A DNA stretch of 64,000 bases, from positions 1,608,501 to 1,672,500 of the forward strand of contig NZ_CP088149.1 in NCBI RefSeq assembly GCF_002845275.2, given 5' to 3'. The stretch is from Pseudomonas sp. S06B 330. GTDB lineage: Bacteria; Pseudomonadota; Gammaproteobacteria; Pseudomonadales; Pseudomonadaceae. Made by a program: the position numbers and the translations under genes. This document shows positions 2,883 through 63,053 of the stretch, one piece after another; within the stretch, counting starts at the first letter, position 1; each line of letters opens with the position of its first letter. The notes below the pieces were generated by a model. That model had not been told where the DNA came from. It was given only the letters and a program-made list of their open reading frames with translations, and did no database searches.

Positions 2883-2885
2883 CCC

Positions 2886-7007: not shown

Positions 7008-7033
7008 TGTTGGTGCGAGTGTAGCGAGAGCAT

Positions 7034-8275: not shown

Positions 8276-8314
8276 AATCATTTTAATCTCAGGTTTATCG
8301 ATTAAAGCCAATCA

Positions 8315-8360: not shown

Positions 8361-8431
8361 ATTAGTTGTCTCTTGATAATTTGCGTGGGCCGTGATGTAG
8401 GCTGCACGCTCTAGGCCTTGGTCTTACCACT

Positions 8432-9544: not shown

Positions 9545-9560
9545 TATTGGCTAGTTGTGG
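9531..9560 (+). repeat. 10-bp tandem repeat at the 3' end of the acyltransferase gene
   Basis: CTAGTATTGG occurs twice exactly (9531-9540, 9541-9550), followed by a decayed third unit CTAGTTGTGG. The stop codon of the acyltransferase lies in the second unit. Confidence 0.8.
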
Positions 9561-9637
9561 TTAGTGAATGAGGAAGTCGATTAGTTGATATTGCGTATGT
9601 TATCGATAGTTCTGGAGTTGATGAACTCCCCTCGTCT

Positions 9638-10075: not shown

Positions 10076-10177
10076 GGCCTAGTCGGAAGGAACGCTCACT
10101 GCTGCGTCCTGCATAATGCTAACTCGCTGTCCGCATGAAAAGTGCCGACAGTTTAAGTGTCGACGCTTTGTGTCGCG

Positions 10178-11359: not shown

Positions 11360-11834
11360 TCTCAGATTCAGATAATCAAAACGGGCATTCTATCCAACAC
11401 TCGTCACAGAGCGGGTTTATTTTTGTCTGTGCTCAACCGGACTATGGCTCTCTACAAGATCGACAGCTGGGTGCGGGTAGCCGCGTTTCTGGGTCAGGTC
11501 GGGCACGCATCTGGCTAGGTGCGCAAACTGGTCGAAAACCTGAACGTTGGTCTCATATTCTGGGCGCTGCGCGCCCGGCGGATAGCACAAGTGGTGACCG
11601 ACTTCGGCCCTCAGGGATCGCTCAATCAGGTCCTTCTTGAGCGGCGCAGAGGCATCCCAATAGCTTCAGCGGTCATCGCCCCGTCGGCGAGCTGCTAAGC
11701 AGCTCTTTCGGGATTTTCGGCAGTTCTCGAAGTGCTTGGCACGCGGGTTTCTTTTTTGTTGGCTTACATACACCTCTTGCTCATGTTATGCCCGAACACA
11801 AAATTTCTGCCCCCCCACTCCCAACCCTCCGTCC
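11360..11834. other. Non-coding stretch with decayed sequence between acyltransferase and comEA repeat
   Basis: No intact gene was found in 475 bases. The part from about 11558 to 11656 reads on the minus strand as a transposase fragment (listed separately). The same frame continues without a stop to about 11430 but is not recognised. From 11720 to 11834 the sequence is C-rich and unremarkable up to the right copy of the direct repeat. Confidence 0.5.
11558..11656 (-). pseudogene. Relic of an IS256-type transposase N-terminal region
   Basis: Read on the minus strand, one frame gives DASAPLKKDLIERSLRAEVG followed by HHLCYPPGAQRPE. This resembles the PLLKxLIExALxAEMxxHLGY segment near the N-terminus of IS256-family transposases, including the PPGAQRPE-like continuation. 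The frame is closed by a stop just upstream and the downstream residues do not match what I know of the family, so only a fragment remains. The identification is by eye. Confidence 0.45.
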
Positions 11835-12290
11835 GATTCAGTAACGATTCCCCCACCCCCCACCATTTGACTCCCCCCCAACCCGTTCTAAATTTCAAAG
11901 GCAGCCAAGGAAAAGCTGCCTTCGCAACCACCTAGGAGTCTTAACCCATGCGCAACACCGTCCTGTCCTACCTGCTCCTCCCTCTGTTCGCCAGTGCCTC
12001 CTTCTCATTAAGTGCAGCACCCGCCGCTGACCCAGTTGTAGCCCCGGTGGCGGTCGTCGCGGCACAACACCCTGTCGCCCGCCTGGACCTGAACACCGCC
12101 GACGCTCCAACCCTGCAATCCACCCTGACGGGCATCGGCAAAACCCGAGCTGAAGCCATCGTCGCCTATCGCGAAGAACACGGAGCCTTCGCTTCAGTGG
12201 ATGAATTGCTGGAGATCAAGGGCATCGGCAAGGCGCTACTCGACCGCAACCGCGACCGGCTCACCGTTAACTAGCGCTCCCATAGAGGCC
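11835..12290 (+). repeat. Right copy of the ~440-bp direct repeat (intact comEA-like gene)
   Basis: This is the direct-repeat partner of 9638-10075, in the same orientation, including the untranslated upstream part beginning GATTCAGTAACGATT. The distance between copies is about 2.2 kb. Confidence 0.9.
11948..12274 (+). CDS. ComEA-like helix-hairpin-helix protein, secreted
   Basis: This 108-residue protein has a signal peptide (hydrophobic SYLLLPLFASASFSL, Ala-rich cleavage region near residue 24) and a C-terminal ComEA-type domain of two helix-hairpin-helix motifs: LDLNTADAPTLQ, LTGIGKTRAEAIVAYREEHG and LLEIKGIGKALLDRN. ComEA proteins bind DNA in the periplasm during uptake in competent bacteria. 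In Pseudomonas such small copies commonly sit near the polysaccharide locus and their role is not established. TAGGAG lies about 10 bases upstream of the ATG. A decayed duplicate lies 2.2 kb to the left. Confidence 0.88.
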   Translation: MRNTVLSYLLLPLFASASFSLSAAPAADPVVAPVAVVAAQHPVARLDLNTADAPTLQSTLTGIGKTRAEAIVAYREEHGAFASVDELLEIKGIGKALLDRNRDRLTVN

Positions 12291-47719: not shown

Positions 47720-48008
47720 GACACAGTTCCTAAAGGGAGAGTGGGGCAGACGTTACTCAGGCCGGGCAGTCAGGTAAAGCGCTGTGACTGACTGACCGGT
47801 CAGCCATTGGCCGCTTTAGCGTATAACTTGGGAGGAGGTGCTGACGGGCTGCCGAAGCACGCCAGAGATTGGCAGCTTTGCCCTGTGTGCCGTGATTTTT
47901 TGCCGAATTGGCTTAAGCGCATGAATATTCTGAAAAAAACCTTTGCCATCAGAACCTGTTTCGACTACATTAGCGCGCCTCGACAGGCTGAACTGCTTGA
48001 AGAGAAAC

Positions 48009-48098
48009 GGTGAAGTGTCCGAGTGGCTGAAGGAGCACGCCTGGAAAGTGTGTATACAGGAAACTGTATCAAGGGTTCGAATCCCTTCTTCACCGCCA
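48009..48098 (+). tRNA. tRNA-Ser (anticodon GGA)
   Basis: This is a 90-base tRNA with acceptor arms GGTGAAG and CTTCACC, a long variable arm (GTGTATACAGGAAACTGTATC-type), T-loop GGTTCGAATCC and encoded CCA end. The anticodon loop CTGGAAA has GGA at 48043-48045, reading UCC and UCU. A terminator follows directly. Confidence 0.97.
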
Positions 48099-48105
48099 CA
48101 TTTAG

Positions 48106-48140
48106 AAAAGCCCCCGACCTGAAAAGGTCGGGGGCTTTTT
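48106..48140 (+). terminator. Rho-independent terminator after tRNA-Ser
   Basis: AAAAGCCCCCGACCT and AGGTCGGGGGC form a 10-11 bp stem over a GAAA-type loop, followed by five T. Confidence 0.95.
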
Positions 48141-48230
48141 GCATTCTGCAGGTTTCGCGCCCTCATTTGCTCTCCCCACGTTCGCCCTGTGGTGTGATAT
48201 TTCACTGACGAAATCGCACTAACGCGGTGA

Positions 48231-48329
48231 TTTTCATAAGCGCTCAGAACTTTTCAGCATTATTCAGCATTCCGCGAACCGCGAATCATGCCTTTTCAGA
48301 GCAGCGTGGTGGGGGGGCATGCGTTACTG
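48231..48329. promoter_or_regulatory. Phased TCA(G) array A, candidate operator
   Basis: TCA elements start at 48234, 48244, 48254 and 48264 (10-bp steps; CTCAGAAC, TTTTCAGCAT, TATTCAGCAT). After a 22-bp step come 48286 and 48296. TTACTG (48324-48329) in GCATGCGTTACTG follows. The same layout recurs at 53774 and 57672. It lies 90 bases after the tRNA terminator and about 550 bases upstream of the chemoreceptor gene. Confidence 0.6.
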
Positions 48330-48375
48330 TTTTAGCTTCTGGCTAGGCCTGCGCAAGAGGTACGAAGAGCACATT

Positions 48376-48468
48376 ATGCCAGTGTCGCTGATCATACTGT
48401 TCGCACTCTACGCGGGGGCGGTTTGCGGTAATTTGACGCTGAGCCTCGTGGGGCTGGTGAGGCGTTAA
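48376..48468 (+). CDS. Possible 30-residue hydrophobic peptide
   Basis: The open frame starts at ATG 48376 with GAAGAG 7 bases upstream. It encodes MPVSLIILFALYAGAVCG followed by NLTLSLVGLVRR. A single hydrophobic helix ending in two Arg would suit a membrane microprotein or a leader peptide. It lies about 50 bases downstream of array A. There is no homology evidence; it may be chance. Confidence 0.3.
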   Translation: MPVSLIILFALYAGAVCGNLTLSLVGLVRR

Positions 48469-48882
48469 TTTCGGTGTGATACCGAGAGTTCTATTTAACC
48501 GTTCTACAGCGAAATAATGATTAGTTGATGCCAGAGCAAAAAATGTTCGGCGCGCGGATGTAGTCATACAAGGGGTATGTCACCTAACCCAAACGCATCA
48601 GTTTCCGTTGTCATGGCGCAAGAATCGGGAGCGTTCATCGCACATCAAATTGGCCGTTGCCGAGGCGTCGTTGACGATAATGATGTCAAGGTCAAAGAAG
48701 ATCATCGGGCACTGATTTAAGTGGTACGCGGGGCGTCTATCAACTGGGTGTTAATGCCAAGCGGATGAACAATATTACGGTTCTTACTGACACCCGTCAG
48801 TTTGCTCACGCTGAGGTGTTGCGTACTCTTTCTGCGTTCAAGGACTTGACTCGTTCCGGTCAATTTATCGAGACATATAATA
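48469..48882. other. Gap before the chemoreceptor gene
   Basis: No convincing gene was found. A 47-codon frame at 48577-48720 (MSPNPNASVSVVMAQ...) has a poorly placed GGGG. TATAAT at 48876-48881 abuts the chemoreceptor ATG by 1 base. No Shine-Dalgarno site is visible before that ATG. Confidence 0.45.
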
Positions 48883-50511
48883 ATGAATCTACGTACACTT
48901 AATCTTGCTCCTCGTTCGATGCTGTGTTTTGGTTTTTTTTGCCTGTTGATCAGCGGTATGGGGTTATTTGCTATCAGCAAGGCCTCTGACCTGAATCGGG
49001 CAGAAAAGCTTGTTGAAGAAAATGTCGTGCCTAGTTTCAAGATTTTAGGTGGACTTGGGCGCGATTTTGTCACTTTGCGTAATGAAAACAGCAAGCTGCG
49101 TAACCCGTTGGAATCTGCCACGGTAAAGGCCAAGAGTATTGCCAGTATCACCGCGACTAAATATGCCATTCAGAAAGAGCTGGACCAATTCTCACCCTTG
49201 GTCGTGACGGCTAAGGCGCCGGAAATCTTCCGCGCGCTGAAAGAGGCTGTTAGCCAATTCAACGTTGTTGAAGAAAAATACTTGGCCTTGATTGCGGCCA
49301 AGGATTTTGAAGGTGCTATCCAACTCTCCGACTCCGAAGTCCGACGTGTACACGATGGCATATTCACCCACCTTCAGCAGTTGATCGACGTCAACGAGGA
49401 AAAGGCTAAAGCTGCCGGCGCTGCAGCCGATGCCGCTTACACAAGCCTGCGCACCCTAGTTGGAGTTTTCATCGCCGTAGCAATGGTTGCAAGTATTTTA
49501 CTCGCTACGCTTTACACCCGCAGCATATTAATTCCCGTACGCCAGTCGCTACTGATTGCTGAGCGCATTGCCAGTAACGACTTCAGCGCCGATATTAACG
49601 TTGATGGCCGTGACGAGTTGGGGCGCTTGATCGCCGCGCTTGCCACGATGCAGGACAATCTGCGCAACGCAATTACCAAGATCTATGATTCGTCTACTCA
49701 ACTGGCCGCTACCTCGGAAGAAATGCATGCCGTGACGGAGGACGCTTCCAAGGGCCTATTGCGTCAGACCGACGAAATTGAGATGGCGGCCACGGCCGTG
49801 ACCGAGATGAGTTCGGCGGTCGACGAAGTGGCCAACAACGCTGCAGAGGCCTCTACGGCAGCGTCGCAAGCCAGCAGTACGGCTATGAGTGGTCGGATCA
49901 AAGTCGATGAGACCGTGGTGGCAATCAACCACATGGTCTCCACCGTTGAGTCGACATCGGCTGACGTCAAAGAACTGGCCGTAATGGCCTCTGATATCAG
50001 CACGGTACTTGATGTGATCCGTGCCATTGCCGAACAAACCAACCTGCTGGCCCTGAACGCCGCTATCGAAGCCGCTCGAGCCGGTGAGGCGGGCCGCGGT
50101 TTTGCCGTGGTGGCTGATGAAGTGCGTGCACTGGCCCACCGTACGCAGCAGTCGACCCAGGAGATCGAAAAAATGATCTCCAACATTCAGGCCGGCAGCA
50201 ACGCGGCGGTCACTTCTATGGACCATAGCAGTGTGCAGGCTGGCAAAACCCTGTTGCTGGCGCAGGCAGCGGGGGCTGCACTTGCCGAAATCACCGAGTC
50301 GATCAGCCACATCAATGATCGCAACCTGCAGATTGCAACGGCTGCCGAGGAGCAATCGCAAGTGGCGCGTCAGGTCGATCAGAACCTGGTGAGCATCCGT
50401 GATCTGTCGACCCAATCGGCTACCGGCTCTCATCAGACGTCGCTCGCCAGTGGTGAGCTCTCGGTACTCGCCGTTGATCTGAACCATCTGGTGAAGCAGT
50501 TCAAAATGTAA
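48883..50511 (+). CDS. Methyl-accepting chemotaxis protein (4HB sensor type)
   Basis: This 542-residue chemoreceptor has [20 protein letters not shown] as a typical Pseudomonas 4HB-receptor start, membrane helix 1 (about 12-32), and a ~150-residue helical periplasmic domain. Membrane helix 2 (about 189-208), HAMP, and the signalling domain with the tip [20 protein letters not shown] (about 383-402) follow. The family resemblance fixes the start despite the lack of an RBS. No CheR-binding pentapeptide is present. The ligand is unknown. It leads the signalling island with the diguanylate cyclase after it. Confidence 0.92.
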
Positions 50512-50814
50512 TGATGATTGAACTCGCCGCAATTTTGCTCAAAACGGTTTGATGTGCTGGGTACAGTGTAAGAAAGCCAACAAGCCATTTTGTAACCCGC
50601 TCTTTCGGTGAAGAAGAGCGGGAGCGGCTTGTGGAGCGTTGGTGGGCGACAATCATCAGGTCTGTGTGCTTTGACTCAGTGATTTTTCACCTGCGAGCCT
50701 CCCGTCGGAACAGCCATAATGAGCTGGTTGGCTGAGCCGCAAAGATGATCAAGCATAGCAGTTTGGGAAATAGTGGCCGACTTGGCGAGGCCCGGCGTAT
50801 CTGGGTGGGGTTAT
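50512..50814. other. 303-bp gap before the diguanylate cyclase gene
   Basis: It contains a hairpin at 50596-50622 (CCCGCTCTTT / AAGAGCGGG) without a T-run, and scattered TCAG elements at 50656, 50676 and TCAC at 50687. These only weakly resemble the phased arrays elsewhere in the island. Confidence 0.45.
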
Positions 50815-53724
50815 ATGAGTGGTTTTGTTGCGTGGCTACGATCGGTCACAGACTCGTTTTTCTCCAGTCTGGCCGCTAAACGCGGTGTGTTGATCCTGGC
50901 TTTACTGGTTCAGGGCACGTGTGCGGGTGTTTACTTGTACCTAGAGCATAACTGGATTGAAGCCAGGGTGGTGCAAAGCCTGAAAAACGTCTCGTCGATG
51001 CATTTACGCAGCTTTGATCAGCTCGAGATAACACTGAACTATCAACTTTCTTCGATCGGTGAGGCCATGGGTCTCCTTGGTATGGATCTGCCGCGAAAAC
51101 AAGCGCTGCTGCAAAAGGAGTTGAAGCAGGCATGGCTGGATACCGTCATCGTCCTAGATGCCGCTGGCAATATCGTTACCTTCGCCACTGATGTACCGCT
51201 GAGCGCTGCTTTGCCGCCGAGCGTGTTGGCGGCCTCCTCCTACAAGAACTGGTCTCGGTATCGGGCGTTCATGGACAGCGGGGCAGAGACAGCCAGCTTT
51301 TTTGTTTCCCGGCCGCAAATACCTGAACTGCGTGGTGGGGGGATAGTGATGTATCGGAGGATCAAATCCACGCAAGGGGACCTGCTGGGGAGTGTCGTCG
51401 GTTTCACCAGCCTCCATAGCTTGTCGAATTTGCTCAATGCCGATGTCGCTCGGGGATTTGATTTGGGCAAGAACGGAATCCTGAATTTTATAGACCGGCG
51501 AACGAATAAAATATTGTATCGCTACATGTATTCGAACGACCCCGCTGAGGTATACAGCGGTGGATTGATCCCCCTTGGCGGCGCCTCTTTTCAGGACTCC
51601 CGGTACGGGGCGGAGGTGAAATTTTACCGCTCGCCGGTGGACGGGCTGGAGCGCCTTGCCGTGTTGGCCCCCATGCACAATGACCAGTGGCTGCAACTGG
51701 TCGGTGCGAGCAAGGATGAGTACCTGTTCAACTGGCGAATTCAGGTGATCTTCTCGGTATTTGCCTTTATCTGTCTGTGCATCCTGCAGTGGCTGCTGGT
51801 GACGTTTATTCATCAGAATCGCGCACAGCGGGCGCTGCTGGATCTGGTCCTGGACACCATGGACGCTTATGTTTACTTCAAAACCAGCGAACGGCGATTT
51901 GTCTACGCCAATGCGAAGACCGCTGACTTGTTCGGTTTGCCGGCTGAACAGATCATCGGCCGACTAGACCGCGAAATCTTGCCGCCTAAGGTCGCCGATG
52001 ATTTCTGGGTCATGGATCGCCAAGTGTTTGCCTCGGGTACCAAGCAAAGCGCTACGGAAGTCGTCACAACACCTGATGGAAAAAAACATTACTACGCGTC
52101 GATCAAGGTGCCGGTGCAACTACCGGATCAACCGCTGGCCTTGATCGGTTTTTCCACCGACGTGACCGAGTTGCATGAGCAAACCATTGCCCGTGAGGCC
52201 GCTGAGAAAGAACTGGTTGCGCACAACCACTCGCTTAGACTGAACAACCTGGTGCTCGATAAACTGGCTCAGAATGCCACGTTGTCGGAAGTGCTGAACG
52301 CCATGGTGTGCATCATTGATGACTACCGTGTCGGTGTATCGGGCGCTGTGTATCTGGTGGCTGACAATGGCAAGGAACTGATCGGCTGTGTTGCACCCCA
52401 TTTGCCTGAGGCATGGTTCGGCGCTACGGCACGCGTACCGATTGACGATATGAACGGCTCTTGCGCGATTGCCGTTTCCCGCGGGGAAACCGTCATCGTT
52501 GAGGATATCGCCAGCGATTCCTCGTATCGAGGCTCAACTCGTGAAGCCATTCTCGCCTTCGGCCTGAGGGCGGCCTGGACCCAGCCGATAAAAAACAATG
52601 AGGGCACTATTCTCGGCGTCTTCGCCTTGTATCAGCGCCAGCCCGCAGCCCCGGACATCCATGATCTCGCCCTGCTGGTGGACTACTCTAAACTCGCACA
52701 ATTGGTCATTGAGCGCTCGCGCCTTGCCGAGGCATTGGCGGAAAGTCAGGCCTTGTATCGCCTGGTGGCGGAAAACAGCAACGATGTAATCTGGGTTGTC
52801 CAATATCCGTCCATGCGATACAGCTATATAAGCCCCTCGGTTGAATGGTTGCGTGGCTGGACGCAGGAAGAAACATTCAATGTTCCGCTGCTTCAATCGA
52901 TGCCGCCAGACTCGGTTTACCTATGGAACGAAGTTGTGGCAGAACACCTGCGGCGTATTGACGAAGGCGACCTGACGGGCCGTTTCATCGGCATTGAGCT
53001 GTCTGTCTGGCACAAGGACGGTCATCGCGTCCCGGTTGAGGTAGTGGCCAATATCATGCTGGACAACGCTTGCAGACCGACCCACATCGTTGGTAGCTCC
53101 CGGGACATCACCCGGCGCAAGGTCGCTGAAGATACCATCCGGAAAATGGCGTTCTACGACCAACTGACTGACCTGCCCAATCGCCGAATGCTCGAAGACC
53201 AGCTTGCCAAGATGCTCGCGCTCGCGAATCGAGAGCAACGTACGTTGTCGTTACTCTTTATTGATCTGGACAGGTTCAAGGCGGTCAACGACCAGCACGG
53301 GCATGAGGCCGGTGACTGGCTATTGAAACAGGTCGCAGTACGTATGTGCTCGGTGCTGCGCGCTTCTGATACCGCTTCGCGCATAGGTGGCGATGAATTT
53401 ATCATCCTCCTGCCAGATGCCCACAAGACAGTCGAGGCCCTTCAGGTCGCGAAGAAGATCCGTCGTATTCTTGAAAAACCATTTGTCATGGACAATGGCG
53501 TGGAGTTGGATATTTCGTCGAGTATCGGCGTAGTGATGTATCCCGACCAGGCCGACAATATGCGTGACTTATTTCACTTTGGCGACGAAGCCATGTACCG
53601 CGCCAAGAAGGGGGGTAGAAACGCAGTGGAAGTATTTGCTCCGCTGGCACAATCTGATGAGCGGAGTAGGGAGAACCTGCAGGGGCGTGATGCGCAACAA
53701 CTTACTGGTGACGAAGAGCACTAG
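50815..53724 (+). CDS. Membrane diguanylate cyclase with Cache-like, PAS, GAF, PAS and GGDEF domains
   Basis: This 969-residue protein makes cyclic di-GMP. Order: membrane helix 1 (about 27-45), a periplasmic sensor of ~260 residues (dCache-like), membrane helix 2 (about 312-332), PAS (about 345-455, MDAYVYFKTSERRFVYANAK), GAF (about 475-640), PAS (about 645-760, NSNDVIWVV) and GGDEF (about 775-945). The catalytic motif RIGGDEFIILLPD is intact, and RASD five residues before it is a product-inhibition I-site (RxxD). There is no EAL domain. Start chosen at ATG 50815 (MSGFVAWLRS); GTG 50773 is the alternative. It is followed by the hybrid kinase. Confidence 0.92.
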   Translation: MSGFVAWLRSVTDSFFSSLAAKRGVLILALLVQGTCAGVYLYLEHNWIEARVVQSLKNVSSMHLRSFDQLEITLNYQLSSIGEAMGLLGMDLPRKQALLQKELKQAWLDTVIVLDAAGNIVTFATDVPLSAALPPSVLAASSYKNWSRYRAFMDSGAETASFFVSRPQIPELRGGGIVMYRRIKSTQGDLLGSVVGFTSLHSLSNLLNADVARGFDLGKNGILNFIDRRTNKILYRYMYSNDPAEVYSGGLIPLGGASFQDSRYGAEVKFYRSPVDGLERLAVLAPMHNDQWLQLVGASKDEYLFNWRIQVIFSVFAFICLCILQWLLVTFIHQNRAQRALLDLVLDTMDAYVYFKTSERRFVYANAKTADLFGLPAEQIIGRLDREILPPKVADDFWVMDRQVFASGTKQSATEVVTTPDGKKHYYASIKVPVQLPDQPLALIGFSTDVTELHEQTIAREAAEKELVAHNHSLRLNNLVLDKLAQNATLSEVLNAMVCIIDDYRVGVSGAVYLVADNGKELIGCVAPHLPEAWFGATARVPIDDMNGSCAIAVSRGETVIVEDIASDSSYRGSTREAILAFGLRAAWTQPIKNNEGTILGVFALYQRQPAAPDIHDLALLVDYSKLAQLVIERSRLAEALAESQALYRLVAENSNDVIWVVQYPSMRYSYISPSVEWLRGWTQEETFNVPLLQSMPPDSVYLWNEVVAEHLRRIDEGDLTGRFIGIELSVWHKDGHRVPVEVVANIMLDNACRPTHIVGSSRDITRRKVAEDTIRKMAFYDQLTDLPNRRMLEDQLAKMLALANREQRTLSLLFIDLDRFKAVNDQHGHEAGDWLLKQVAVRMCSVLRASDTASRIGGDEFIILLPDAHKTVEALQVAKKIRRILEKPFVMDNGVELDISSSIGVVMYPDQADNMRDLFHFGDEAMYRAKKGGRNAVEVFAPLAQSDERSRENLQGRDAQQLTGDEEH

Positions 53725-53773
53725 GCGTCGGCCAGCACGTCAAAGCTCTGGACAGGGCGTTACGCCGTCCCAC

Positions 53774-53838
53774 TCACAAATTTTCAGCATTTTTCAGGAA
53801 ACCAATCGCATGAATCAGTTGTTTTCACAGCGCTACTG
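53774..53838. promoter_or_regulatory. Phased TCA(G) array C, candidate operator upstream of the hybrid kinase
   Basis: TCA elements start at 53774, 53784 and 53794 (TTTTCAGCAT, TTTTCAGGAA), then after a 21-bp step at 53815 and 53825. CTACTG in GCGCTACTG ends at 53838, 20 bp closer than in the other arrays. It lies about 70 bp upstream of the kinase start. Confidence 0.6.
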
Positions 53839-53906
53839 AAGGGGCAGTAGTTTACTAATGGGCAAGCTTTCGACGTGGGTCGTGGCAATGTTCGCAGGAG
53901 AGCCTC

Positions 53907-56900
53907 GTGAGTCTGGAGCGTCTGAGCAAGCTCATTTCGATAGGATTTGCTATAGCGTTGGTTACCTGTCTGCTGACCTTAGTATTGGGTCATTACTACG
54001 CTGAACAGGTTCGAGGTGTCACTGACAAACGTCACCAAATGATATCCGGTGTTGTCCAGATGGCTGCGCTTAATCGAGCCCTGACTCAGTTGGCCCGTTT
54101 GTATGCAAGTACAGGTGATGATCTATTTCGCAGTCTCTATAACCAACAATCGCAAGACGGTCGTGCCTTTCACAATGCAGTCGAGAACCTTGCAACTATT
54201 GGGCTTAGTGATACTGAATCCCGATGGCTAGCCCAGGTCGAAACCTTGGATTCCAAACAAGCGGAAATGGAGAGGCGGGCAATCACCCCGCGCAGTCTTG
54301 AAGACGCAGTGCTTCTCCTCTCCGCTACTACGTACATCAATTCCGAGTGGAATTTTGCGGATGCGCTAAATCAGTTGAGGGTTCTAATCAGCCAAAGATT
54401 GGATGCCAATGTCGAGGCTGCGCGAAACAAAGCAAAATTGGCTGGCACTGTCAGTGTCGTGATGCAATTGATCACGTTAGTCGCAGGGCTTCTGGTGTTT
54501 TTGGTCATTATACGGCGCCAACTGGTGACCCCCCTATTGACACTTTCTGAGCGCATTCGCCGTCTGAAAAACGGGGAGCCCCCTGTCGTGCAGTTGCAAC
54601 AAAAGGGGCTTGCTGAAGTGGTGTCGCTGGGTGAAGCGCTTAACGCCTATGTTGAAGTCAATGAAGAGCTGCGTCGACAGCACTGGGTCAAGGGGCGTCT
54701 CGGCGAATTGGTGCAAGCGTTGCAGTTGGCTACCACTCTGGAAGCATTCGCTACAACCTTGCAACAGCGACTGCAGGATTGTTTAGGTTGTCAGGCCGTC
54801 TTGCTGTTTGATCCAGCGCCCTTCGTGCGCCGCAGTGGCCGGGTGCATTTCAGTTTGCCAATTCTGCAGGACGGACAGCAGATGGCCAGCCTTGAGCTTG
54901 ATTTCAGCCATCGCCCGGATCCAGCCCAGTTCAGTCTAATCGATGGTTTGCCCCCACGCGTCGGCGCGCTGTTGGATTTTCTACTGCAACGCATTCACAA
55001 CCAGCAGCTATTGACGCAGGCCCGACAACAGGCCAGGCAGTTGGAAGACCAGGCACTGATACTGCAACAACGGCAAGAGTCACTGGAGGCTACTGAGAGC
55101 TGGTACCGGGGCATTGTAGAGTTCGCGCCAAAGGCATTACTGGTGTTTGATGAGCACAATGTGATTCTGGCCAATCAGGAGAGCGAACTGACCCTTGGCT
55201 ACAAGCCCGGCAGCTTGTTGGGGCAGAGCTATCGAGGGTTGGTACCGGACAGGCAGCTTGAGCGTGTCGATCATATCCTTGAGCGGTTGCGAATCAACAA
55301 AGTGGTAGACACCGTAGAGGTGATTGCCCGTCGAGCTGATGGCAGTGAGTTTCCTGCCGAACTGCGCCTGTGTCTGCTACCGGCCCGACAGGGTAGGGGG
55401 GAGTGCCGGTGTGTGGCGATTCGCGATCTTAGTCAGCGGAAGGCAGATGAACGCCGCTTGCGGGAAGCACATGAACAGCAGCAAGCAATTGTCACGGCGG
55501 CGCCTTATGGTATTGCATTGGTGCAGGGTGGGGTGATCGTCCAGGCTAACTGGCGGCTGAACGAACTTCTCGGTTATGCGCCAGGCGAGCAACTGCAGTG
55601 TTCACCGCTGAGCTGGCTGAATCAGGCTGCGTCGGAGGATATGCGCGCCTTGGAGGAGCAGGTTCTCGCGACATTGAACCGTGGCGACATTTATCAGCAG
55701 CAACTGCAGCTATGCCGAAAGGACTTCAGTTGCTTCTGGGCGAGTCTGAGTGCACGAGCCATCTCGCCTGGGAACTTGTCTCGTGGATCGATCTGGATCA
55801 TCCAGGATATTACTGCCCAACACGCCGCAGCCGCTGATATGCAACAGGCCCAGCAACTGGCTGAAGAAAGTGCACGAATCAAAAGCGAATTTCTAGCCAA
55901 CATGAGCCATGAGATTCGCACGCCGATGAATGCAATCATTGGCATGACTCATCTGGCGTTGATGACGGAGCTGAACGAGCGCCAGCTTGACTATCTGTCC
56001 AACATACAACGCTCCAGCCAATACTTGCTGGGTGTACTTAACGATATTCTGGATTTTTCGAAGATTGAGGCTGGCAAGCTTCAGCTGGAGTTTCGTGACT
56101 TCAGCTTGGCCCAGCTACTGGAAGAAGCGATTGACCTGGTACGTCCCCGTATTGTTGAGAAACGTCTGGACTTACGCCTGAATACCGAAGCGGATGTGCC
56201 CGAGCGTCTGTGTGGAGACCCGCTGCGACTGCGTCAGATTTTACTCAATTTTCTCAGTAATGCGGTGAAATTCACCGAACGGGGACAGATCCGAATAGAG
56301 GTAAGTCTGCGTCAGAGTGGCGTGGATGATGTTCTGTTGTACTTCAGCGTAACGGATACCGGCATCGGTCTGTCGTCCGAGCAGTTGGACGCCATATTCC
56401 ACTGCTTTGAACAGGCCGATACCTCAATCACAAGGCGCTTTGGCGGAACGGGCTTGGGGCTGGCGATTGCCAAGCAACTCGCCGAGCTGATGGGGGGGCG
56501 AGTAGGGGTTCAGAGTGTCTTGGGTGAAGGTAGCAGCTTCTGGTTTGAGGTCCGCCTGCAATTGGCTCAGAACGAAGTCATTGATACACAGCCTCTGGCA
56601 CCAAGCCTCAACGATTGGAAGGCGGCCGATGGTACTCGCATTTTGCTGGTGGAAGACAATGAACTGAATCAGCAGGTCGCCGCCGGGCTGCTACAGGCGG
56701 TGAATTGCGGTGTAGATACTGCCGCAGATGGTCGCGAGGCGCTAAAACGCTTGGCTGAAGGAGCGTATGACCTGGTGTTAATGGACATGCAGATGCCAGT
56801 GCTCGATGGCTTGGCGGCCACCCGTCAACTGCGTCTGCTGCCCGGCTTGAGCGAGCTGCCGATTGTGGCGATTAGCGCTAACGCGAGGAAGTGCGATCAC

Positions 56901-57389
56901 GACGCTTGCCTGGCTGCGGGCATGAACGACTTTATCAGCAAGCCCTTTGAACCACAGACGCTTTACACGATTTTGCGGCACTGGCTTGGCCGGGCACCGG
57001 TACGCGACGGGCAACGCCGAGGGCTTGGCGAAACCCTGAATCTCGATGGAGTGGACACGGAAGCCGGCATACGGCGGGTGTTGGGTAGTCACGAGATGTA
57101 TCTGAATCTCTTGCAGACCTACTTCGTCGACCAGAGCGCTTTGTTGAAGGAACTGGACATCGCGCTGGTGGAGAGTCAGTTGGATAAAGCCGAGGTGTTG
57201 GCTCATCGGTGTAAAGGCGTATCTGCGACCATTGGTGCTGACGCTATTGCGCGGCGAGCGGATGGGTTGGAGCAGGCTATACGCACAAAGCAACCTGATC
57301 ATGAGCTGCGCATCTGTCTGGAACGTTTGAGCGAACCGCTGGCGGCACTCCTCAAGCAGTTGAGTGCGCTATTGCCCCATGAAATCTAA
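53907..57389 (+). CDS. Hybrid sensor histidine kinase with PAS domains, receiver and Hpt
   Basis: This 1160-residue phosphorelay kinase has membrane helices at about 8-30 and 190-212 around a small helical periplasmic sensor, then HAMP and a GAF-like region (about 255-365). A short coiled coil leads to PAS 1 (about 400-510, FAPKALLVFDEHNVILANQE) and PAS 2 (about 525-635). HisKA has FLANMSHEIRTPMNAIIGM (His near 669), and the HATPase has LLNFLSNAVKFTERG and GGTGLGLAIAKQL. The receiver has phospho-Asp in LVLMDMQMPVLDG (near 958), and the C-terminal Hpt has AHRCKGVSATIG (His near 1099). Start GTG 53907 follows AGGAGAG. The HD-GYP regulator downstream is the likely output. Confidence 0.93.
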   Translation: MSLERLSKLISIGFAIALVTCLLTLVLGHYYAEQVRGVTDKRHQMISGVVQMAALNRALTQLARLYASTGDDLFRSLYNQQSQDGRAFHNAVENLATIGLSDTESRWLAQVETLDSKQAEMERRAITPRSLEDAVLLLSATTYINSEWNFADALNQLRVLISQRLDANVEAARNKAKLAGTVSVVMQLITLVAGLLVFLVIIRRQLVTPLLTLSERIRRLKNGEPPVVQLQQKGLAEVVSLGEALNAYVEVNEELRRQHWVKGRLGELVQALQLATTLEAFATTLQQRLQDCLGCQAVLLFDPAPFVRRSGRVHFSLPILQDGQQMASLELDFSHRPDPAQFSLIDGLPPRVGALLDFLLQRIHNQQLLTQARQQARQLEDQALILQQRQESLEATESWYRGIVEFAPKALLVFDEHNVILANQESELTLGYKPGSLLGQSYRGLVPDRQLERVDHILERLRINKVVDTVEVIARRADGSEFPAELRLCLLPARQGRGECRCVAIRDLSQRKADERRLREAHEQQQAIVTAAPYGIALVQGGVIVQANWRLNELLGYAPGEQLQCSPLSWLNQAASEDMRALEEQVLATLNRGDIYQQQLQLCRKDFSCFWASLSARAISPGNLSRGSIWIIQDITAQHAAAADMQQAQQLAEESARIKSEFLANMSHEIRTPMNAIIGMTHLALMTELNERQLDYLSNIQRSSQYLLGVLNDILDFSKIEAGKLQLEFRDFSLAQLLEEAIDLVRPRIVEKRLDLRLNTEADVPERLCGDPLRLRQILLNFLSNAVKFTERGQIRIEVSLRQSGVDDVLLYFSVTDTGIGLSSEQLDAIFHCFEQADTSITRRFGGTGLGLAIAKQLAELMGGRVGVQSVLGEGSSFWFEVRLQLAQNEVIDTQPLAPSLNDWKAADGTRILLVEDNELNQQVAAGLLQAVNCGVDTAADGREALKRLAEGAYDLVLMDMQMPVLDGLAATRQLRLLPGLSELPIVAISANARKCDHDACLAAGMNDFISKPFEPQTLYTILRHWLGRAPVRDGQRRGLGETLNLDGVDTEAGIRRVLGSHEMYLNLLQTYFVDQSALLKELDIALVESQLDKAEVLAHRCKGVSATIGADAIARRADGLEQAIRTKQPDHELRICLERLSEPLAALLKQLSALLPHEI

Positions 57390-57671
57390 GTCTCGTCTGC
57401 GCTCGACGTTATCCAGTTACAAGCCATTTGCCGCGTGCTCGATAGCCCGTTGGCTGAATTTGATGGGGGCTCTTTATCCTATTTTTCCCAACATGCAGGC
57501 GTCCTGCGGAGCGGGTTTGCAGAGCATTTTCAGCCGTTGCCTACCGCGGGAGGTGTCGTGACTTCAAGCAGGCGCGATTTTGCCTGAACGAGGCCCTGCA
57601 CGCCCATGCAACAGACGCAGAAAGCGCCAAGCAAGCCACGGGCAACCTCTAAGGGTAGCGCCAAGGCAGAT

Positions 57672-57756
57672 TCAGAAGTTTTCAGCGTTTTTCATCATTA
57701 AACACCGTGTGGCTCAGCTCATTTCAGAACAGGCGTGTGAATGGCATGCGTTACTG
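57672..57756. promoter_or_regulatory. Phased TCA(G) array B, candidate operator upstream of the HD-GYP regulator
   Basis: TCA elements start at 57672, 57682 and 57692 (TTCAGAAGTT, TTCAGCGTTT, TTCATCATTA), then after a 22-bp step at 57714 and 57724. GCATGCGTTACTG ends at 57756, as in array A. It lies about 110 bp upstream of the HD-GYP gene in a 478-bp gap; the rest of that gap (57390-57670) shows no gene. Confidence 0.6.
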
Positions 57757-57867
57757 CAGTCAATTGGCAAAGATAGAGCACGATTCTTGCCCCTTTGTGC
57801 GTTCGCGCCAATGACCTTTACCACGACTGATTTGACTACGTATTAGTGATCCTGCCGCGAGGAAGTC

Positions 57868-58995
57868 TTGTTGGACCATTATCCCTCTAAACCCGTCGTG
57901 CTGGTGGTTGACGATGAGCCGTCCAGCCTGCAGGTGATCAATGAGTTACTGAGAGAGCACTATCAAGTACGAGTTGCTGCTAGCGGCGAGCACGCCCTGC
58001 AGATCATCGATCAAACGATTCCCGATCTGATCTTGCTGGACATCGTAATGCCTGGCCTGAATGGCCATGAGGTATGTCGTCGCCTCAAGGGCAACTCAAA
58101 GACCTGTGATGTGCCGGTTCTGTTCTTGAGTGCCAGCAATCAGGATATAGATGAGTGTCTGGGGCTCGCGCTCGGCGCGGCCGATTACCTGAGCAAACCG
58201 ATCAATCCGCCCGTCCTGCTAGCGCGGGTACAGACACAAATGCGCCTCAAGGTGGCTGTAGATCTGCTGCGTTCGCAAAAGAGTTTTTTGGACCAGGAAA
58301 TATTGGCGCGAACCCGCGAGCTCCAAGCAACCCACGACGTGACCATTCTGGCCCTGGCGTCATTGGCCGAGACACGCGATAACGAGACGGGTAATCACCT
58401 GCGGCGCACACAGCATTATGTGCGAGTACTGGCCGAGAATTTGCGTCATCACCCACGGTTCAGTGCACATCTAGATGAAAAGAGCATTGAACTGATTTGT
58501 AAGTCGGCACCGCTGCATGATATCGGAAAGGTCGGTATTTCCGACCAGATATTACTCAAGCCAGGTCGCTTGGAGGCGGATGAGTTCGAGATTATGAAGA
58601 CTCATGCGCAATTGGGTTATCAGGCGCTGGTACATGCGGAGGAGCTGTTGGGAGAACAAGTGCCCTTCCTGCGCATCGCCAAGGAAATTGCCCTGTGCCA
58701 TCACGAAAAATGGGACGGCAGTGGCTACCCCAATGGGCTGGCCGGCGATGCCATTCCTGTAAGTGCTCGCTTGATGGCTATCGCAGACGTCTACGATGCA
58801 ATCATCAGTCGGCGCGTATACAAATTGTCAAAGAGCCACAACACAGCAGCCAACGTTATTTATGACGGGGCCGGGAGACATTTTGATCCTGATATGGTGG
58901 AGGCTTTTCGGGGCTTGGAGGATGAGTTTGATCAGATCGCTCAGCGTTATGCCGATAGCGCGCCGTATGAGCCACTTAGAACAAGCGGCGGGTAA
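57868..58995 (+). CDS. Two-component response regulator with HD-GYP phosphodiesterase domain
   Basis: This 375-residue protein has an N-terminal receiver (acidic pair VVDDEPSSL, phospho-Asp in LILLDIVMPGLNGHE near 58, Lys in YLSKPINPPV near 108). A helical linker leads to an HD-GYP domain (about 165-360) that breaks down cyclic di-GMP: APLHDIGKVGISDQILLKPG has the HD metal pair, and HHEKWDGSGYPNGLAGDAIP has HHE and GYP. All key residues are present. The start is TTG 57868 or 57871, after GAGGAAG. It opposes the GGDEF enzyme in the same island. Confidence 0.93.
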   Translation: MLDHYPSKPVVLVVDDEPSSLQVINELLREHYQVRVAASGEHALQIIDQTIPDLILLDIVMPGLNGHEVCRRLKGNSKTCDVPVLFLSASNQDIDECLGLALGAADYLSKPINPPVLLARVQTQMRLKVAVDLLRSQKSFLDQEILARTRELQATHDVTILALASLAETRDNETGNHLRRTQHYVRVLAENLRHHPRFSAHLDEKSIELICKSAPLHDIGKVGISDQILLKPGRLEADEFEIMKTHAQLGYQALVHAEELLGEQVPFLRIAKEIALCHHEKWDGSGYPNGLAGDAIPVSARLMAIADVYDAIISRRVYKLSKSHNTAANVIYDGAGRHFDPDMVEAFRGLEDEFDQIAQRYADSAPYEPLRTSGG

Positions 58996-59240
58996 CGACT
59001 CTGAACCACTGGCAACTATAGGCCCCCTGAGAAAAGGGCCGCAATACCTATAGCCAGGACGGTGGCGAATACGTTCTGACGTTTGTCTTGCGATTGCTCA
59101 CTAGGCCGCAACCTGACTGCAATTTTTTGCAGAAAACAGGAATGCAGTGCGTATTGATGTGGAGTCCGGACGACACTGCGAAAGACGACAAGCGGGAATG
59201 ACTTTCCAGTTTGTCGAATTTCCGAATATGGAAAGGTGTG

Positions 59241-60107
59241 ATGGGCCTCGTTCTAATTGATAAAATTCTAGTGTTCGATGAGGACAACTTTCTGCTGTTT
59301 CGGGCTGATGCCGATGGTGAAGAGCCGTTGCGCTTAGGCGCAATCGCCAGCCGTTGCCTGGCCATGCTTTTGCGCTCAGATAATGCTGTGGTGCGTAAGC
59401 GTGATTTGATGGCGGGAGCATGGGGTCAGTACGGCTTGGAGGTGACTGACAATAGCCTGGCCCAAGTTGTCCGGCAGTTACGACTGGCATTGGAAAAAAT
59501 GCAGCCTGATCGTGAGTTTATCCAGACATTGCCACGAATAGGCTACAAGCTTACCGATAACGTCCAAGTGGAAGAGTTGGCAGCCAATGCACCGGTCATA
59601 TCGACCGTGCGCTCGGCAATGTTTAACAATGATGGAGAAATCCCTGTTTCACCTGCGTCGAGCCTAGCCGATACAACGCTGGGAGATACCGGCCCCTCAT
59701 TGCTCAAGGAAGCACAATCCTATACGTCGCCGTCAACACTCCCAGCATTGTTGCAACAGCGTTGGGGTCTATGGCTTGCCTTACTATTGTGGGGCGCACT
59801 TACTTTTCTGTTGGGGAGAGCCTGGCAGGCACCACCGTTGGATGCGCCTCTGATTGGGTTTAGCGCACCGGTAACCATGAATAATGTCAACGTGTATCTA
59901 CCTGCAGATAAGTGGAAACAACTACCGACGTCATACTTGCAGGCGACGGTCCTTCGCAGCCAAAAACTGGCGGAAATAATGGGAATCCCGGTGGGCGAGG
60001 TGCATCTGTACTTGCTGACGTCAGGTCGAGAGAGCAATCAGATTCTGTGCGATGGTAAGTTGGAAGCGGCCAATAGCCGCTGTATCGGTGTGCAACTATA
60101 TGACTAG
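59241..60107 (+). CDS. ToxR-like membrane-bound winged-helix regulator, copy 1
   Basis: This 288-residue protein has an N-terminal OmpR/ToxR-type winged helix (about 5-105: RLGAIASRCLAMLLRSDNAV, KRDLMAGAWGQYGLEVTDNS, PREFIQTLPRIGYKL-like end). A polar linker precedes one membrane helix (about 175-195, WGLWLALLLWGALTFLLG), and a ~95-residue periplasmic domain follows. Two Cys near its end (ILCDGKLEAANSRCIG) could form a disulfide. This layout is that of ToxR, TcpP and Yersinia PsaE/MyfE. The ATG has GGAAAGG 5-11 bases upstream. Its end overlaps the partner gene by 8 bases. Confidence 0.88.
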   Translation: MGLVLIDKILVFDEDNFLLFRADADGEEPLRLGAIASRCLAMLLRSDNAVVRKRDLMAGAWGQYGLEVTDNSLAQVVRQLRLALEKMQPDREFIQTLPRIGYKLTDNVQVEELAANAPVISTVRSAMFNNDGEIPVSPASSLADTTLGDTGPSLLKEAQSYTSPSTLPALLQQRWGLWLALLLWGALTFLLGRAWQAPPLDAPLIGFSAPVTMNNVNVYLPADKWKQLPTSYLQATVLRSQKLAEIMGIPVGEVHLYLLTSGRESNQILCDGKLEAANSRCIGVQLYD

Positions 60108-60600
60108 GCGTTTTACATGTTCAAGTTGGTGTCAAGCCTTCGTTTTGGTTGGTCTGTTGAGTGTAACTCTGGGCTACTTGTCAGGTGGATATAAGGTTGG
60201 CGTGGATCTCTGGTGCGAAGGGGAGAGTGCGCATCAAGTGCGACCTGACGCAAATTCTGCATGGCTGACCACGCGCTTCAGCCTGGATTTGAGACCAGCA
60301 GGTTCAAGCTATATGAGCATGAAGGCTCGACTGATGGATACCAATACCGAGGCTGTTATTGGAGTGATGCAGCGTACTAGTACCTTCCGAGCACGACAAC
60401 ATGAGCACCGTCTGCAGATTGATGTTCAGCGTAGTGCCGAGAACGAAGTAGATCGTTCGGATCCGGAGCTGTCGACGCGTGCGGGTCTGTTTTCTTATAA
60501 GCCGGGTGACAGTTTGAGTGTATGGATGCAGCCGCTGACCAAGACGCGTTATTTGATGGATGATGGCAGTGACGTGTTCATGATATGCAGTAGAAGGTGA
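60100..60600 (+). CDS. Membrane-anchored periplasmic partner of the ToxR-like regulator, copy 1
   Basis: This 166-residue protein has one N-terminal membrane helix (SSWCQAFVLVGLLSVTLGYL) and a periplasmic domain with LWCEGESAHQV at its start and a C-terminal FMICSRR, again two Cys. Size, topology and overlap with the regulator match ToxS/TcpH/PsaF-type chaperones that stabilise the regulator in the periplasm. No sequence family is recognised by eye. The ATG lies inside the regulator's last codons (ATGACTAG), implying coupled translation. Confidence 0.85.
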   Translation: MTRRFTCSSWCQAFVLVGLLSVTLGYLSGGYKVGVDLWCEGESAHQVRPDANSAWLTTRFSLDLRPAGSSYMSMKARLMDTNTEAVIGVMQRTSTFRARQHEHRLQIDVQRSAENEVDRSDPELSTRAGLFSYKPGDSLSVWMQPLTKTRYLMDDGSDVFMICSRR

Positions 60601-60778
60601 TGATCCTCGTGTTAGACCATTCCTTAATGAGCAAGGTGGTCGCGTAAACAACGGGGTTTTACACGTTTGGCATCCATGCCCAGCGAAAGCGCCTGCCCAC
60701 CTAATGGCGTTCAGACTGGAGCCGTTCTTTATATATCCGGAGGCGGTTGATAGTTGCTATCAAATGTGAGGGACGTGC

Positions 60779-61225
60779 CTAGGCCTTGATGCCCAGTTCC
60801 CTGTTAACCAATGGAAGCAGCTGCTCGGGTTCTATTGGCTTGAGAAGAAAATCGACGATGCCAAGGTGCATGGCGTCGATTGCATCTCGAATGCCTGCAT
60901 CGCCGGAAACTACTACGATAGGCAAGTCGGCCCACACTGAGTTTCGGATCTGACGAATAAACGCCAGGCCATCAATCGGTAGCATGCGTAGGTCGGTTAT
61001 GACTAATGTAATTAGTTTTTCAGACTTCAACAAGTCCATTGCATCGGCGGCATTTTCAGCCAACAGGCTGTGTATGCCTTTGCTGTCAAGAATACCGGAC
61101 AACATTTCGCGCATTGAGCGGTCGTCGTCAACGATCAAGACTTTCTGAATGCTTGGCTCTGGCTCTTGTTTGCCGATGATTCTGATGGCTTCGTGTTCGG
61201 CGTAACTCACAATGTCGTCGTTCAT
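60779..61225 (-). CDS. Single-domain (REC) response regulator
   Basis: This 148-residue protein has a 27-residue N-terminal extension then one CheY-like receiver: VLIVDDDRSMREML (acidic pocket 33-35), phospho-Asp 78 in LVITDLRMLPIDGL, Ser in VVVSGDAG, Lys in FLLKPIEPE. There is no output domain. It may pass phosphate from the island's hybrid kinase or act by protein contact. It lies on the minus strand between the two ToxR-like pairs. Confidence 0.92.
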   Translation of the reverse strand: MNDDIVSYAEHEAIRIIGKQEPEPSIQKVLIVDDDRSMREMLSGILDSKGIHSLLAENAADAMDLLKSEKLITLVITDLRMLPIDGLAFIRQIRNSVWADLPIVVVSGDAGIRDAIDAMHLGIVDFLLKPIEPEQLLPLVNRELGIKA

Positions 61226-61642
61226 AATCTTTCCGTCAGTGCTAAAGATGGCCCTGTCATGTTGATTGTAATTTCAATCCAGCGTCCCCGTATGTTCGAG
61301 TGTAAACTCTTGAAACGGGTATTTTCAGAAAGTGAGTGCGCCCAGAAATTTAGTAACCGCTATCCGATGCGAGGAATTATCGTCGAAGGTTACAGCTGCT
61401 TGTGACCTGCGTAATAACACCGTGTGCGATCACATTAACCGATGCGTAAGTGGACTGCCGATACCCGAGCGCGTTGATTACAATCGGGTGTTTTGACTTT
61501 ATGCTCCCATGCCCCTGGCCGTCAAGTGTGTTGGTTTTTTTATTGTTCGGGCCCTTGCGTATTTGTCCATAGCACAAGTAAGTGAATGCCGCTGGCAACA
61601 GTTGCGTGGTCGGCGGGCCTCCGCGCATAGAACTTGGCGATG
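61226..61642. other. 417-bp intergenic region between the REC gene and the copy 2 partner gene
   Basis: I see no gene. The promoter of the REC gene should lie here. A single TTTTCAG (61322-61328) occurs, but not in a 10-bp phased series. Confidence 0.5.
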
Positions 61643-62146
61643 TCACCGCTTGCTACACAGAATGAACATGTCATTGCCATCATCGAACAGGTAACGCGTC
61701 TTGGACAGCGACCGTATCCAATAACTTAAGCTGTTGTTCGAACGGAAGATAAAAAGACCGAGTGTGCCCGCAAGTTCAGGCTGCGTGCTCTCCGCTTCGC
61801 CACTGGCGCTACGTACTACCGTTATCTGCAAGCGATGGCCCTGTTGTTGCACATGGAAGGCCGTATTGCGACGTAGGGTGTGAAGTGCAGTCCCGGAGTC
61901 GAGATCGATCAATTGGGCCACCATGCGCATATGGCTGACCCCAGTAGTTCTCAAGTCCAGCCTGAATCGTGTCGTCAGCCATGAAGAAGATGGCCGTTGC
62001 GATTGCACTTGATGCGCGCTTTCCCCGGTGCACCAGAGGTCCAGGCTCGAGGCGTGCGAGCCGAACAAACGCCCCAGTCCCGCACCTAGCAGACTCACGA
62101 CGACGAAGGCCAGAGACCAGCTTACGAGTGCGGTGCGCCTAGTCAT
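61643..62146 (-). CDS. Membrane-anchored periplasmic partner, copy 2
   Basis: This 167-residue paralogue of the protein at 60100 has an N-terminal helix (LVSWSLAFVVVSLLGAGLG) and DLWCTGESAHQVQ against DLWCEGESAHQVR. SWLTTRFRLDLR faces AWLTTRFSLDLR, and the C-terminal MFILCSKR faces MICSRR. Its start at 62146 overlaps the end of the copy 2 regulator by 8 bases with the same ATGACTAG sequence as copy 1, so the pair was duplicated as a unit. Confidence 0.87.
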   Translation of the reverse strand: MTRRTALVSWSLAFVVVSLLGAGLGRLFGSHASSLDLWCTGESAHQVQSQRPSSSWLTTRFRLDLRTTGVSHMRMVAQLIDLDSGTALHTLRRNTAFHVQQQGHRLQITVVRSASGEAESTQPELAGTLGLFIFRSNNSLSYWIRSLSKTRYLFDDGNDMFILCSKR

Positions 62147-63053
62147 GTTGCTGTACACCAATGCAGCGGCTGCTCGCCGATTCTAAGGCACCATCGCAGA
62201 GAATCTGATCTGCTCCACGGCGCGAAGGTAACAAGTACAGGTGTATGTTTTGCGCTGATAGACCTAGAAACCCCGCCAGTTTTCGACTCTTCTGGACCAT
62301 CAACTGCAGGTGTGCCGCCACTGGTGGGTGAATGTCTTGAATTGGCAAGTGGACCTGCACCTCATCGATCGTTACGGAGGCGGCGAACGCTGGGGGCTCG
62401 ACCTCAAGCGATGGGGTCGGCCAGATACTTGCGAGTACAAATGCACAGGCTCCACATAAGGGTAAGGCGAGCCACAAGAGCCAACGCCTTGGGGCTGTAA
62501 TAGGGTGTGTTGGCGGCGGCCCTGAAGCGGGTGCTGCTGTCGTGGGGATTGCCGTGATCGCTGCCGATTCGGCAAGGTCTGTTTCTGTTTCTGTTTCTGT
62601 TTCTGTTTCTGTTTCTGTTTCTGCGATGAGCGATGCATCAGGCACATCGGGAGCGGGAGCTTCACTGCCAGTGACGGTCGACAACGGGCTCGGCACCCTG
62701 TTCAGAGGCGCAGTCAACGGTTCGACTTTCACCCCTTCGGCGAGCTTGTAGCCTAGGCGTGGCAAGGTCTGGATGTATGTCCGACCAGGCTTGAGTTTTT
62801 CCAGTGCCATGCGCAACTGGCGGACAATCTGGACTAGGCTGTTGTCGGTCACTTCCAGCCCGTATTGCCCCCACGTAGCGGCTATCAGTTCGCGCTTGCC
62901 CACCACGGCCCCCTCCGACCTTAGCAGCATGGCCAGGCAACGGCTGGCGATTGCCCCCAAGCGCACAGGCTCCTCATTGGCGGCGCCGAGACGAAACAAC
63001 AGGAAGTTGTTTTCGTCAAACACCAGCTCGTCATCAATCAGCAGTTGGCCCAT
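62139..63053 (-). CDS. ToxR-like membrane-bound winged-helix regulator, copy 2, with Glu-Thr repeat linker
   Basis: This 304-residue paralogue of the protein at 59241 matches in the winged helix almost throughout (RLGAIASRCLAMLLRS, WGQYGLEVTDNSL, IQTLPRLGYKL). It has a longer linker holding an (ET)n run (about residues 144-158), a membrane helix (WLLWLALPLCGACAFVLAS), and a periplasmic end with ILCDGALESASSRCIG (two Cys). Start ATG 63053 (MGQLLIDDEL) lines up with copy 1; GTG 63083 is the alternative. It probably controls a different target from copy 1, or the two antagonise each other. Confidence 0.87.
   Translation of the reverse strand: MGQLLIDDELVFDENNFLLFRLGAANEEPVRLGAIASRCLAMLLRSEGAVVGKRELIAATWGQYGLEVTDNSLVQIVRQLRMALEKLKPGRTYIQTLPRLGYKLAEGVKVEPLTAPLNRVPSPLSTVTGSEAPAPDVPDASLIAETETETETETETETDLAESAAITAIPTTAAPASGPPPTHPITAPRRWLLWLALPLCGACAFVLASIWPTPSLEVEPPAFAASVTIDEVQVHLPIQDIHPPVAAHLQLMVQKSRKLAGFLGLSAQNIHLYLLPSRRGADQILCDGALESASSRCIGVQQHD
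62581..62622 (-). repeat. Hexanucleotide microsatellite (GTTTCT)x7 in the copy 2 regulator
   Basis: Seven exact copies of GTTTCT (plus-strand view) run for 42 bases. Read on the minus strand they code Glu-Thr pairs. Gain or loss of units changes the linker by two residues and keeps the frame. Confidence 0.95.

Follow-up and report, generated by a model that had tools for sequence, protein, structure and literature searches.

TCA-box arrays as probable operators of a ToxR/ToxS-type co-component system in Pseudomonas

Which protein reads the rows of evenly spaced TCA boxes that stand in three intergenic regions of a 64,000 nt-long stretch of the Pseudomonas sp. S06B 330 genome (contig NZ_CP088149.1, positions 1,608,501 to 1,672,500, here called the window), and which genes does it control? 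Most likely a membrane-bound regulator of the ToxR/ToxS type, two of which are encoded close by, lands on the boxes, which thus mark the targets of a regulator that has been little studied. Judging from sequence comparisons, it is very probable that a ToxRS/VtrAC-type co-component system uses the arrays as operators and activates a small regulon through them; binding, activation, signal and phenotype are what we infer.

Each array (Table 1) consists of five helically phased boxes with one two-turn gap. Direct reading and a script placed all three where a reading made earlier from the letters of the window alone (the sequence-only reading) had located them, and the coordinates agree with the TCA spacing described there: 10, 10, in some cases a further 10, then 21-22 and again 10 bp between TCA starts. 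Counted upstream from the last TCA, the boxes start at 0, -10, -31/-32, -41/-42 and -51/-52. Array 1 carries an additional sixth TCA at 48234, one 10-bp step farther out, and array 3 has extra off-register TCAs at 57695, 57719 and 57760. Array 2 lies upstream of a hybrid histidine kinase gene and array 3 upstream of an HD-GYP response regulator gene. We aligned 33 arrays from ten genomes, using an anchor chosen independently of the -10-like element that follows the boxes. The repeat unit is 10 bp long, TTTCA-N5, the last box reads TTTCAGAGC or TTTCACAGC, and an AGC at +4 to +6 is almost invariant (31/33, 32/33 and 33/33 arrays).

Boxes this short, together with weak profile matches in four same-genus genomes without the system, could be taken for a chance pattern or for copies of a dispersed repeat, an explanation to which we give next to no weight because a Markov control, a backwards control, background-level flanks and orthologous conservation refute it. 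In the first-order Markov control (4 Mb, window dinucleotides), 0.0 five-box and 0.03 four-box patterns were expected per window, compared with 3 seen in either case. The core pattern, searched with up to two mismatches in the 5.64-Mb genome, gave five exact matches and one 2-mismatch match without an array, and the same pattern read backwards had 0 matches in the whole genome. A profile built from five copies returned five arrays at E ≤ 3e-17 and the next match at E = 3.6 (best 150 of 494 first-look candidates scored), and a broader profile built on 27 copies likewise returned five, the next following at 0.46; searches of this kind score the best first-look candidates only, so that misses are possible. 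Ungapped identity among the five arrays of the genome was 0.22-0.31 in the flanks versus 0.51-0.60 in the last two boxes, and a dispersed repeat is therefore excluded. The genome-wide pattern search that the sequence-only reading had proposed as a check thus confirmed the three arrays in the window, raised the total for the genome from three to five, and found the pattern neither common at random positions nor embedded in a repeat.

Its second proposed check, alignment of orthologous intergenic regions, was made by comparing ten related regions with the window, one of which (L085, from genome G225) is without the kinase and HD-GYP genes. In the other nine loci and the window both genes are present, each with an array upstream (10/10), and a ToxR/ToxS-like pair lies nearby in eight of the nine related loci, the exception being Pseudomonas sp. 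Irchel s3f7, where the ToxR-like gene is found on a different contig from the arrays. Identity within orthologous promoters was 0.84-0.87 in the last two boxes, 0.50 in the gap and 0.39 in the downstream leader. Even in a distant group, whose ToxR-like proteins are 34-42% identical, the boxes are kept, some as four in a row. Arrays therefore recur at orthologous promoters in the examined relatives with an intact ToxR-like system, as the sequence-only reading would have it.

To follow arrays and genes across the genus, 298 same-genus genomes were searched with three separate queries: the ToxR-like protein, the sensor half of the kinase and the five-copy array profile. The ToxR-like protein was found in ten genomes, in seven of them intact and strong (E ≤ 5e-35); two further matches, in G265 and G277, are weak and cover the winged helix only, and in G225 the frame (contig C89:62914-63531) contains two stops. 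The kinase sensor half occurred at E ≤ 1e-40 in seven genomes, the same seven that hold an intact ToxR-like gene. At E ≤ 0.01 the array profile matched in 11 genomes, namely these seven and G295 (0.0011), G062 (0.0026), G026 (0.0084) and G181 (0.0098); the matches in the latter four, none with five boxes or a -10-like element, were taken as chance, and full arrays were found only in the seven. G225, G265 and G277 had no array match at this threshold, and G225, which has neither the kinase nor a convincing array, has apparently lost the whole system. A degenerate pattern used alone against 84,980 species matched 13 stretches, nine of which belong to P. brassicacearum 38D7, Pseudomonas sp. GM21 (the same genome as G172, as the match positions are identical), s3f7 and P. 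fluorescens C2, all carriers of a ToxR-like gene. The other four, from Bacteroidaceae, Methanosarcinaceae, Treponema and Chitinophagaceae, match in their boxes by construction of the pattern, have surroundings that look AT-rich by eye, and were taken as chance. The rarity of the arrays, the exclusion of a dispersed repeat, the orthologous conservation and the lack of full arrays in same-genus genomes without the system all support the earlier proposal of a private regulon, which the ToxR-like proteins would run by binding the arrays.

The arrays co-occur with the kinase as tightly as with the ToxR-like gene, and might thus be bound by a different protein, such as a response regulator of the OmpR family that is encoded at another place and fed by the conserved hybrid kinase, with the ToxR-like genes as mere neighbours. 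The Hpt-domain kinase needs an output, and response regulators of the OmpR/PhoB family use similar direct repeats. We nevertheless regard this as very unlikely: among ten window proteins scanned with Pfam only the two ToxR-like proteins matched a DNA-binding family, s3f7 keeps its ToxR-like pair even though pair and arrays are on separate contigs, and the ToxR-like winged helix, whose recognition helix is near-invariant, fits both the spacing of the repeats and the tox-box described below.

The ToxR-like proteins, 49% identical to each other in the window, have the make-up of a co-component regulator, with an N-terminal OmpR/PhoB winged helix, one transmembrane (TM) helix and a periplasmic domain. 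Trans_reg_C of Pfam covers residues 38-114, and the structural model (mean predicted local distance difference test score 79) has a winged helix at 13-114, a long helix taken as TM at 179-205 and a C-terminal domain at 221-294. Its best structural matches were Vibrio cholerae ToxR-DNA structures (17.6), ahead of CadC (15.5) and PhoB (13.0). PhoB, OmpR and CadC share the winged-helix fold. Phased direct repeats beside a promoter are the binding sites of PhoB and OmpR, whose receiver domain is absent from the ToxR-like proteins here. In both window pairs the adjacent gene, which overlaps the regulator gene by 8 bp, encodes a putative membrane partner. Partner 1 has a predicted lipocalin-like periplasmic domain, to which VtrC and ToxS are closer in fold than other lipocalins, at only ~10% identity to ToxS; neither partner has a Pfam match, and partner 1 has none in NCBIfam. 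Cys39 and Cys163, invariant in 14/14 aligned partners, fall into modelled strands 37-46 and 160-165, i.e., the first and last of the barrel as in the FidL-like group (PMC9214523), and could by position form a disulfide. Within ToxR-like gene 2, a perfect 6-bp repeat (TCTGTT, 7.7 copies, 62578-62623) codes for a Glu-Thr run in the linker between the winged helix and the TM helix, the length of which could vary in frame.

The operator itself also resembles that of ToxR. The tox-box consensus, as quoted in PMC8517210 and PMC4829181, is TNAAA-N5-TNAAA; its reverse complement is TTTNA-N5-TTTNA, and the arrays read TTTCA-N5-TTTCA. On the other strand, with N5 or N6, a tox-box is found in 26/33 arrays, a count that is not independent of selection because the arrays were collected with a related pattern. 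The strict form occurs twice in the 64-kb window in array orientation, both times within arrays, and once in the opposite orientation, below position 40000. We take the match as suggestive only, as supporting and not decisive evidence.

Downstream of the boxes, a [TC]A[AC]T start follows the last TCA at offset 28 in 26 arrays and 29 in six (32/33 in total), a TG is present at offset 23 or 24 in 27/33, and in a typical array all boxes stay clear of the -10-like element. The (T/C)TACTG motif that the sequence-only reading had listed as the last box is probably part of the promoter rather than a further binding box. The 20-bp shift of this motif in copy 2 turned out to be a misalignment: CTACTG at 53833-53838 is a decoy, and TTTACTA at 53851-53857 holds the distance from the last TCA that TTACTG has elsewhere. 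The element could thus be an extended -10 (TG...TACT/TAAT), and the last TCA, given this assignment, would lie at about -38 to -36 in place of a -35, a geometry of the class II activator type. A scan of 48100-48900, a range outside which arrays 2 and 3 lie, found no consensus sigma-70 promoter with a -35, and among known regulatory RNAs searched for in 47900-59300 only a tRNA-Ser reached the gathering score.

The same layout has to be weighed for the sign of regulation, as five boxes that span ~50 bp directly before a possible promoter might also repress, or the two paralogues might compete on them, one as activator and the other as repressor. Besides activating, ToxR of V. cholerae represses ompT (PMC6733452), and two diverged pairs are present here. 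The last box, just upstream of a -10-like element that lacks a consensus -35, occupies the usual place of an activator, and its distance to that element is fixed within 1 bp in 32/33 arrays; we therefore consider repression or such competition unlikely.

If the arrays are activating operators, each would be a row of 10-bp half-sites for the cytoplasmic winged-helix domains of membrane-held ToxR-like proteins, which would bind head to tail on one helix face. The protein at the last box, beside the extended -10-like element, would recruit sigma-70 RNA polymerase (class II activation), and the periplasmic lipocalin-like ToxS partner would gate this step on sensing a signal of the envelope or of a lipid-like kind. 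Chemoreceptors, HD-GYP and GGDEF proteins, the hybrid phosphorelay kinase and a receiver protein would belong to the regulon, as would, at distant loci, adhesins (autotransporters or type I-secreted) and a sulfotransferase with APS kinase.

Two arrays of the genome lie outside the window, 1.5 and 0.8 Mb away. One precedes a CHASE3 chemoreceptor (L106), the other an operon of a sulfotransferase, an ESPR autotransporter, an abhydrolase-like protein and an APS kinase (L096, 754-6944), which suggests a sulfated surface product; the GM21 counterpart of this place (L102) seemingly holds just a short sulfotransferase-like frame. The array-linked genes of this genome are thus those for two chemoreceptors, the hybrid kinase and the HD-GYP protein, and this operon. 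GM21 has ten arrays, nine of them among the 33 and the tenth (C125:846-919) outside that set. Linked to the nine are genes for the kinase and the HD-GYP protein, a PATR autotransporter, two further kinases (one of them a second hybrid kinase, with a 4HB sensor), two GGDEF proteins and a relative of the receiver in the window, as well as a type I secretion operon behind which a cadherin/Ig-repeat adhesin is encoded. In s3f7, a 1503-amino-acid DUF5801 repeat protein, likely a large surface protein, is encoded just behind the HD-GYP and receiver genes (L103, 701-5212); no array of its own was found.

Because chemotaxis, phosphorelay, cyclic diguanylate (c-di-GMP) and adhesins recur among the targets, the regulon may be read as a surface-lifestyle switch. 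More tentatively, and with the odds somewhat against it, the five-box arrays might act as assembly tracks that line up several membrane-tethered ToxR-like molecules and draw five or more scattered loci towards the inner membrane, so that a single envelope signal, picked up by the lipocalin partner, would switch chemotaxis, c-di-GMP turnover, surface adhesins and sulfation machinery together. If true, a co-component system of Pseudomonas would for the first time have a defined surface-colonisation regulon, one that can be read directly from sequence.

Several observations weigh against an activating ToxR-type operator. No array was found before either ToxR-like gene, and some targets lie far behind their arrays, ~550 bp for the chemoreceptor gene of the window and ~0.8-1 kb for the two GM21 GGDEF genes, whose assignments are therefore less sure. 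The -10-like element is weak, since most copies by far lack the A at hexamer position 2, and the strength and even the position of the promoter are thus deduced indirectly. The tox-box half-site is degenerate (a random 10-bp repeat would fit it in some phase and strand perhaps once in 12 by our own estimate), and this, like the collection of the arrays by a related pattern, keeps the match from being decisive. The kinase array of G250, in the distant group, is weak (E 0.008 in one search and 0.025 in another), and G295, without the system, outscores G250, which has it (0.0011 and 0.0016), so that E-value alone does not separate genomes with and without the system. A single TCA pair at 10-bp spacing is present in G062 and in G026, the latter with three boxes at 0/21/31, and among 57 relatives eight others gave weak array matches (E 0.008-0.1). 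Finally, the seven genomes may be partly related and so do not count as seven independent events.

The kind of system is known, and what appears to be new here, going by these comparisons, is the operator and the regulon. With ToxR/ToxS of V. cholerae and V. parahaemolyticus it shares the winged helix, one TM segment and a two-cysteine periplasmic domain, a neighbouring membrane partner, here with a predicted ToxS-like barrel, and a direct-repeat operator of 10-bp period with a matching half-site. It differs in its partner and in a regulon of chemotaxis, c-di-GMP and adhesins, and its operator is longer and sharply defined, with five found in the genome, whereas the V. cholerae ToxR consensus is reported to match many more sites than are bound (PMC4829181). 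VtrA/VtrC and the co-component superfamily (Kinch et al. 2022, PMC9214523) have in common with it the overlapping gene pair and the lipocalin-like partner, predicted in our case; in the accessible portion of that paper the Pseudomonas members form a detached cluster, for which one overlapping pair, that of P. fluorescens C1, is named, and no operator, targets or function is given for them. WmpR of Pseudoalteromonas tunicata, listed as Pseudomonas tunicata in a table of PMC10269533, is likewise a membrane-bound regulator of surface-life traits, likened here by description and not by sequence, and unlike our system it has no partner protein listed there. Among the matches listed, titles and abstract openings contained no published account of this operator or of such a ToxR-like regulon in Pseudomonas. 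Co-component pairs of Pseudomonas had been noted as a sequence cluster (PMC9214523). With an operator this sharp the regulon can be listed from sequence alone, and the list points to surface attachment and c-di-GMP and not to toxin genes; this makes the function of the pairs testable and gives a clean case in which to study how activators tethered to the membrane locate several promoters far apart.

Table 1 Arrays and genes of the window cluster.
Feature	Position	Strand	Boxes or domains	Basis or remark
Array 1	48244..48329	+	TCA at 48244, 48254, 48264, 48286, 48296; -10-like TTACTG 48324-48329	Profile E 1.2e-21
Array 2	53774..53857	+	TCA at 53774, 53784, 53794, 53815, 53825; -10-like TTTACT 53851-53856	Profile E 2.7e-17
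Array 3	57672..57756	+	TCA at 57672, 57682, 57692, 57714, 57724; -10-like TTACTG 57751-57756	Profile E 2.1e-21
Methyl-accepting chemotaxis protein	48883..50511	+	4HB_MCP_1, HAMP, MCPsignal	Pfam; first large gene behind array 1
PAS/GAF/GGDEF protein	50773..53724	+		67%-identical GM21 relative has array ~1 kb upstream
Hybrid histidine kinase	53907..57389	+	PAS, HisKA, HATPase, receiver, Hpt	Pfam and orthologues; gene after array 2
Receiver and HD-GYP protein	57868..58995	+		Pfam and orthologues; gene after array 3
ToxR-like regulator 1	59241..60107	+	Winged helix, TM, periplasmic domain, two invariant Cys	ATG 59241 preferred over TTG 59211
ToxS/VtrC-like partner 1	60100..60600	+	TM and predicted lipocalin-like barrel	8-bp overlap with ToxR-like gene 1
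Single-domain response regulator	60779..61225	-		Relatives 55-56% identical in GM21 and G158 lie behind arrays
ToxS/VtrC-like partner 2	61643..62146	-		8-bp overlap with ToxR-like gene 2
ToxR-like regulator 2	62139..63053	-		ATG at 63053 preferred over GTG 63083

The cluster also includes a piece of a TonB-dependent receptor. Between array 1 and the chemoreceptor gene, inside the ~550-bp leader, a 30-codon hydrophobic open reading frame (48376-48468) may encode a small membrane protein and be the true first gene behind this array. The G+C content is 51-55% over 48009-62000 versus 57-62% in the 36 kb before, with a tRNA-Ser(gga) at the left edge, and this block was possibly acquired; no second copy of the tRNA 3′ end that would mark an integration site was found on the + strand of the window, and none of the nine related loci has a tRNA. 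Another stretch of low G+C (44-49%) occupies positions 1-12000 of the window.
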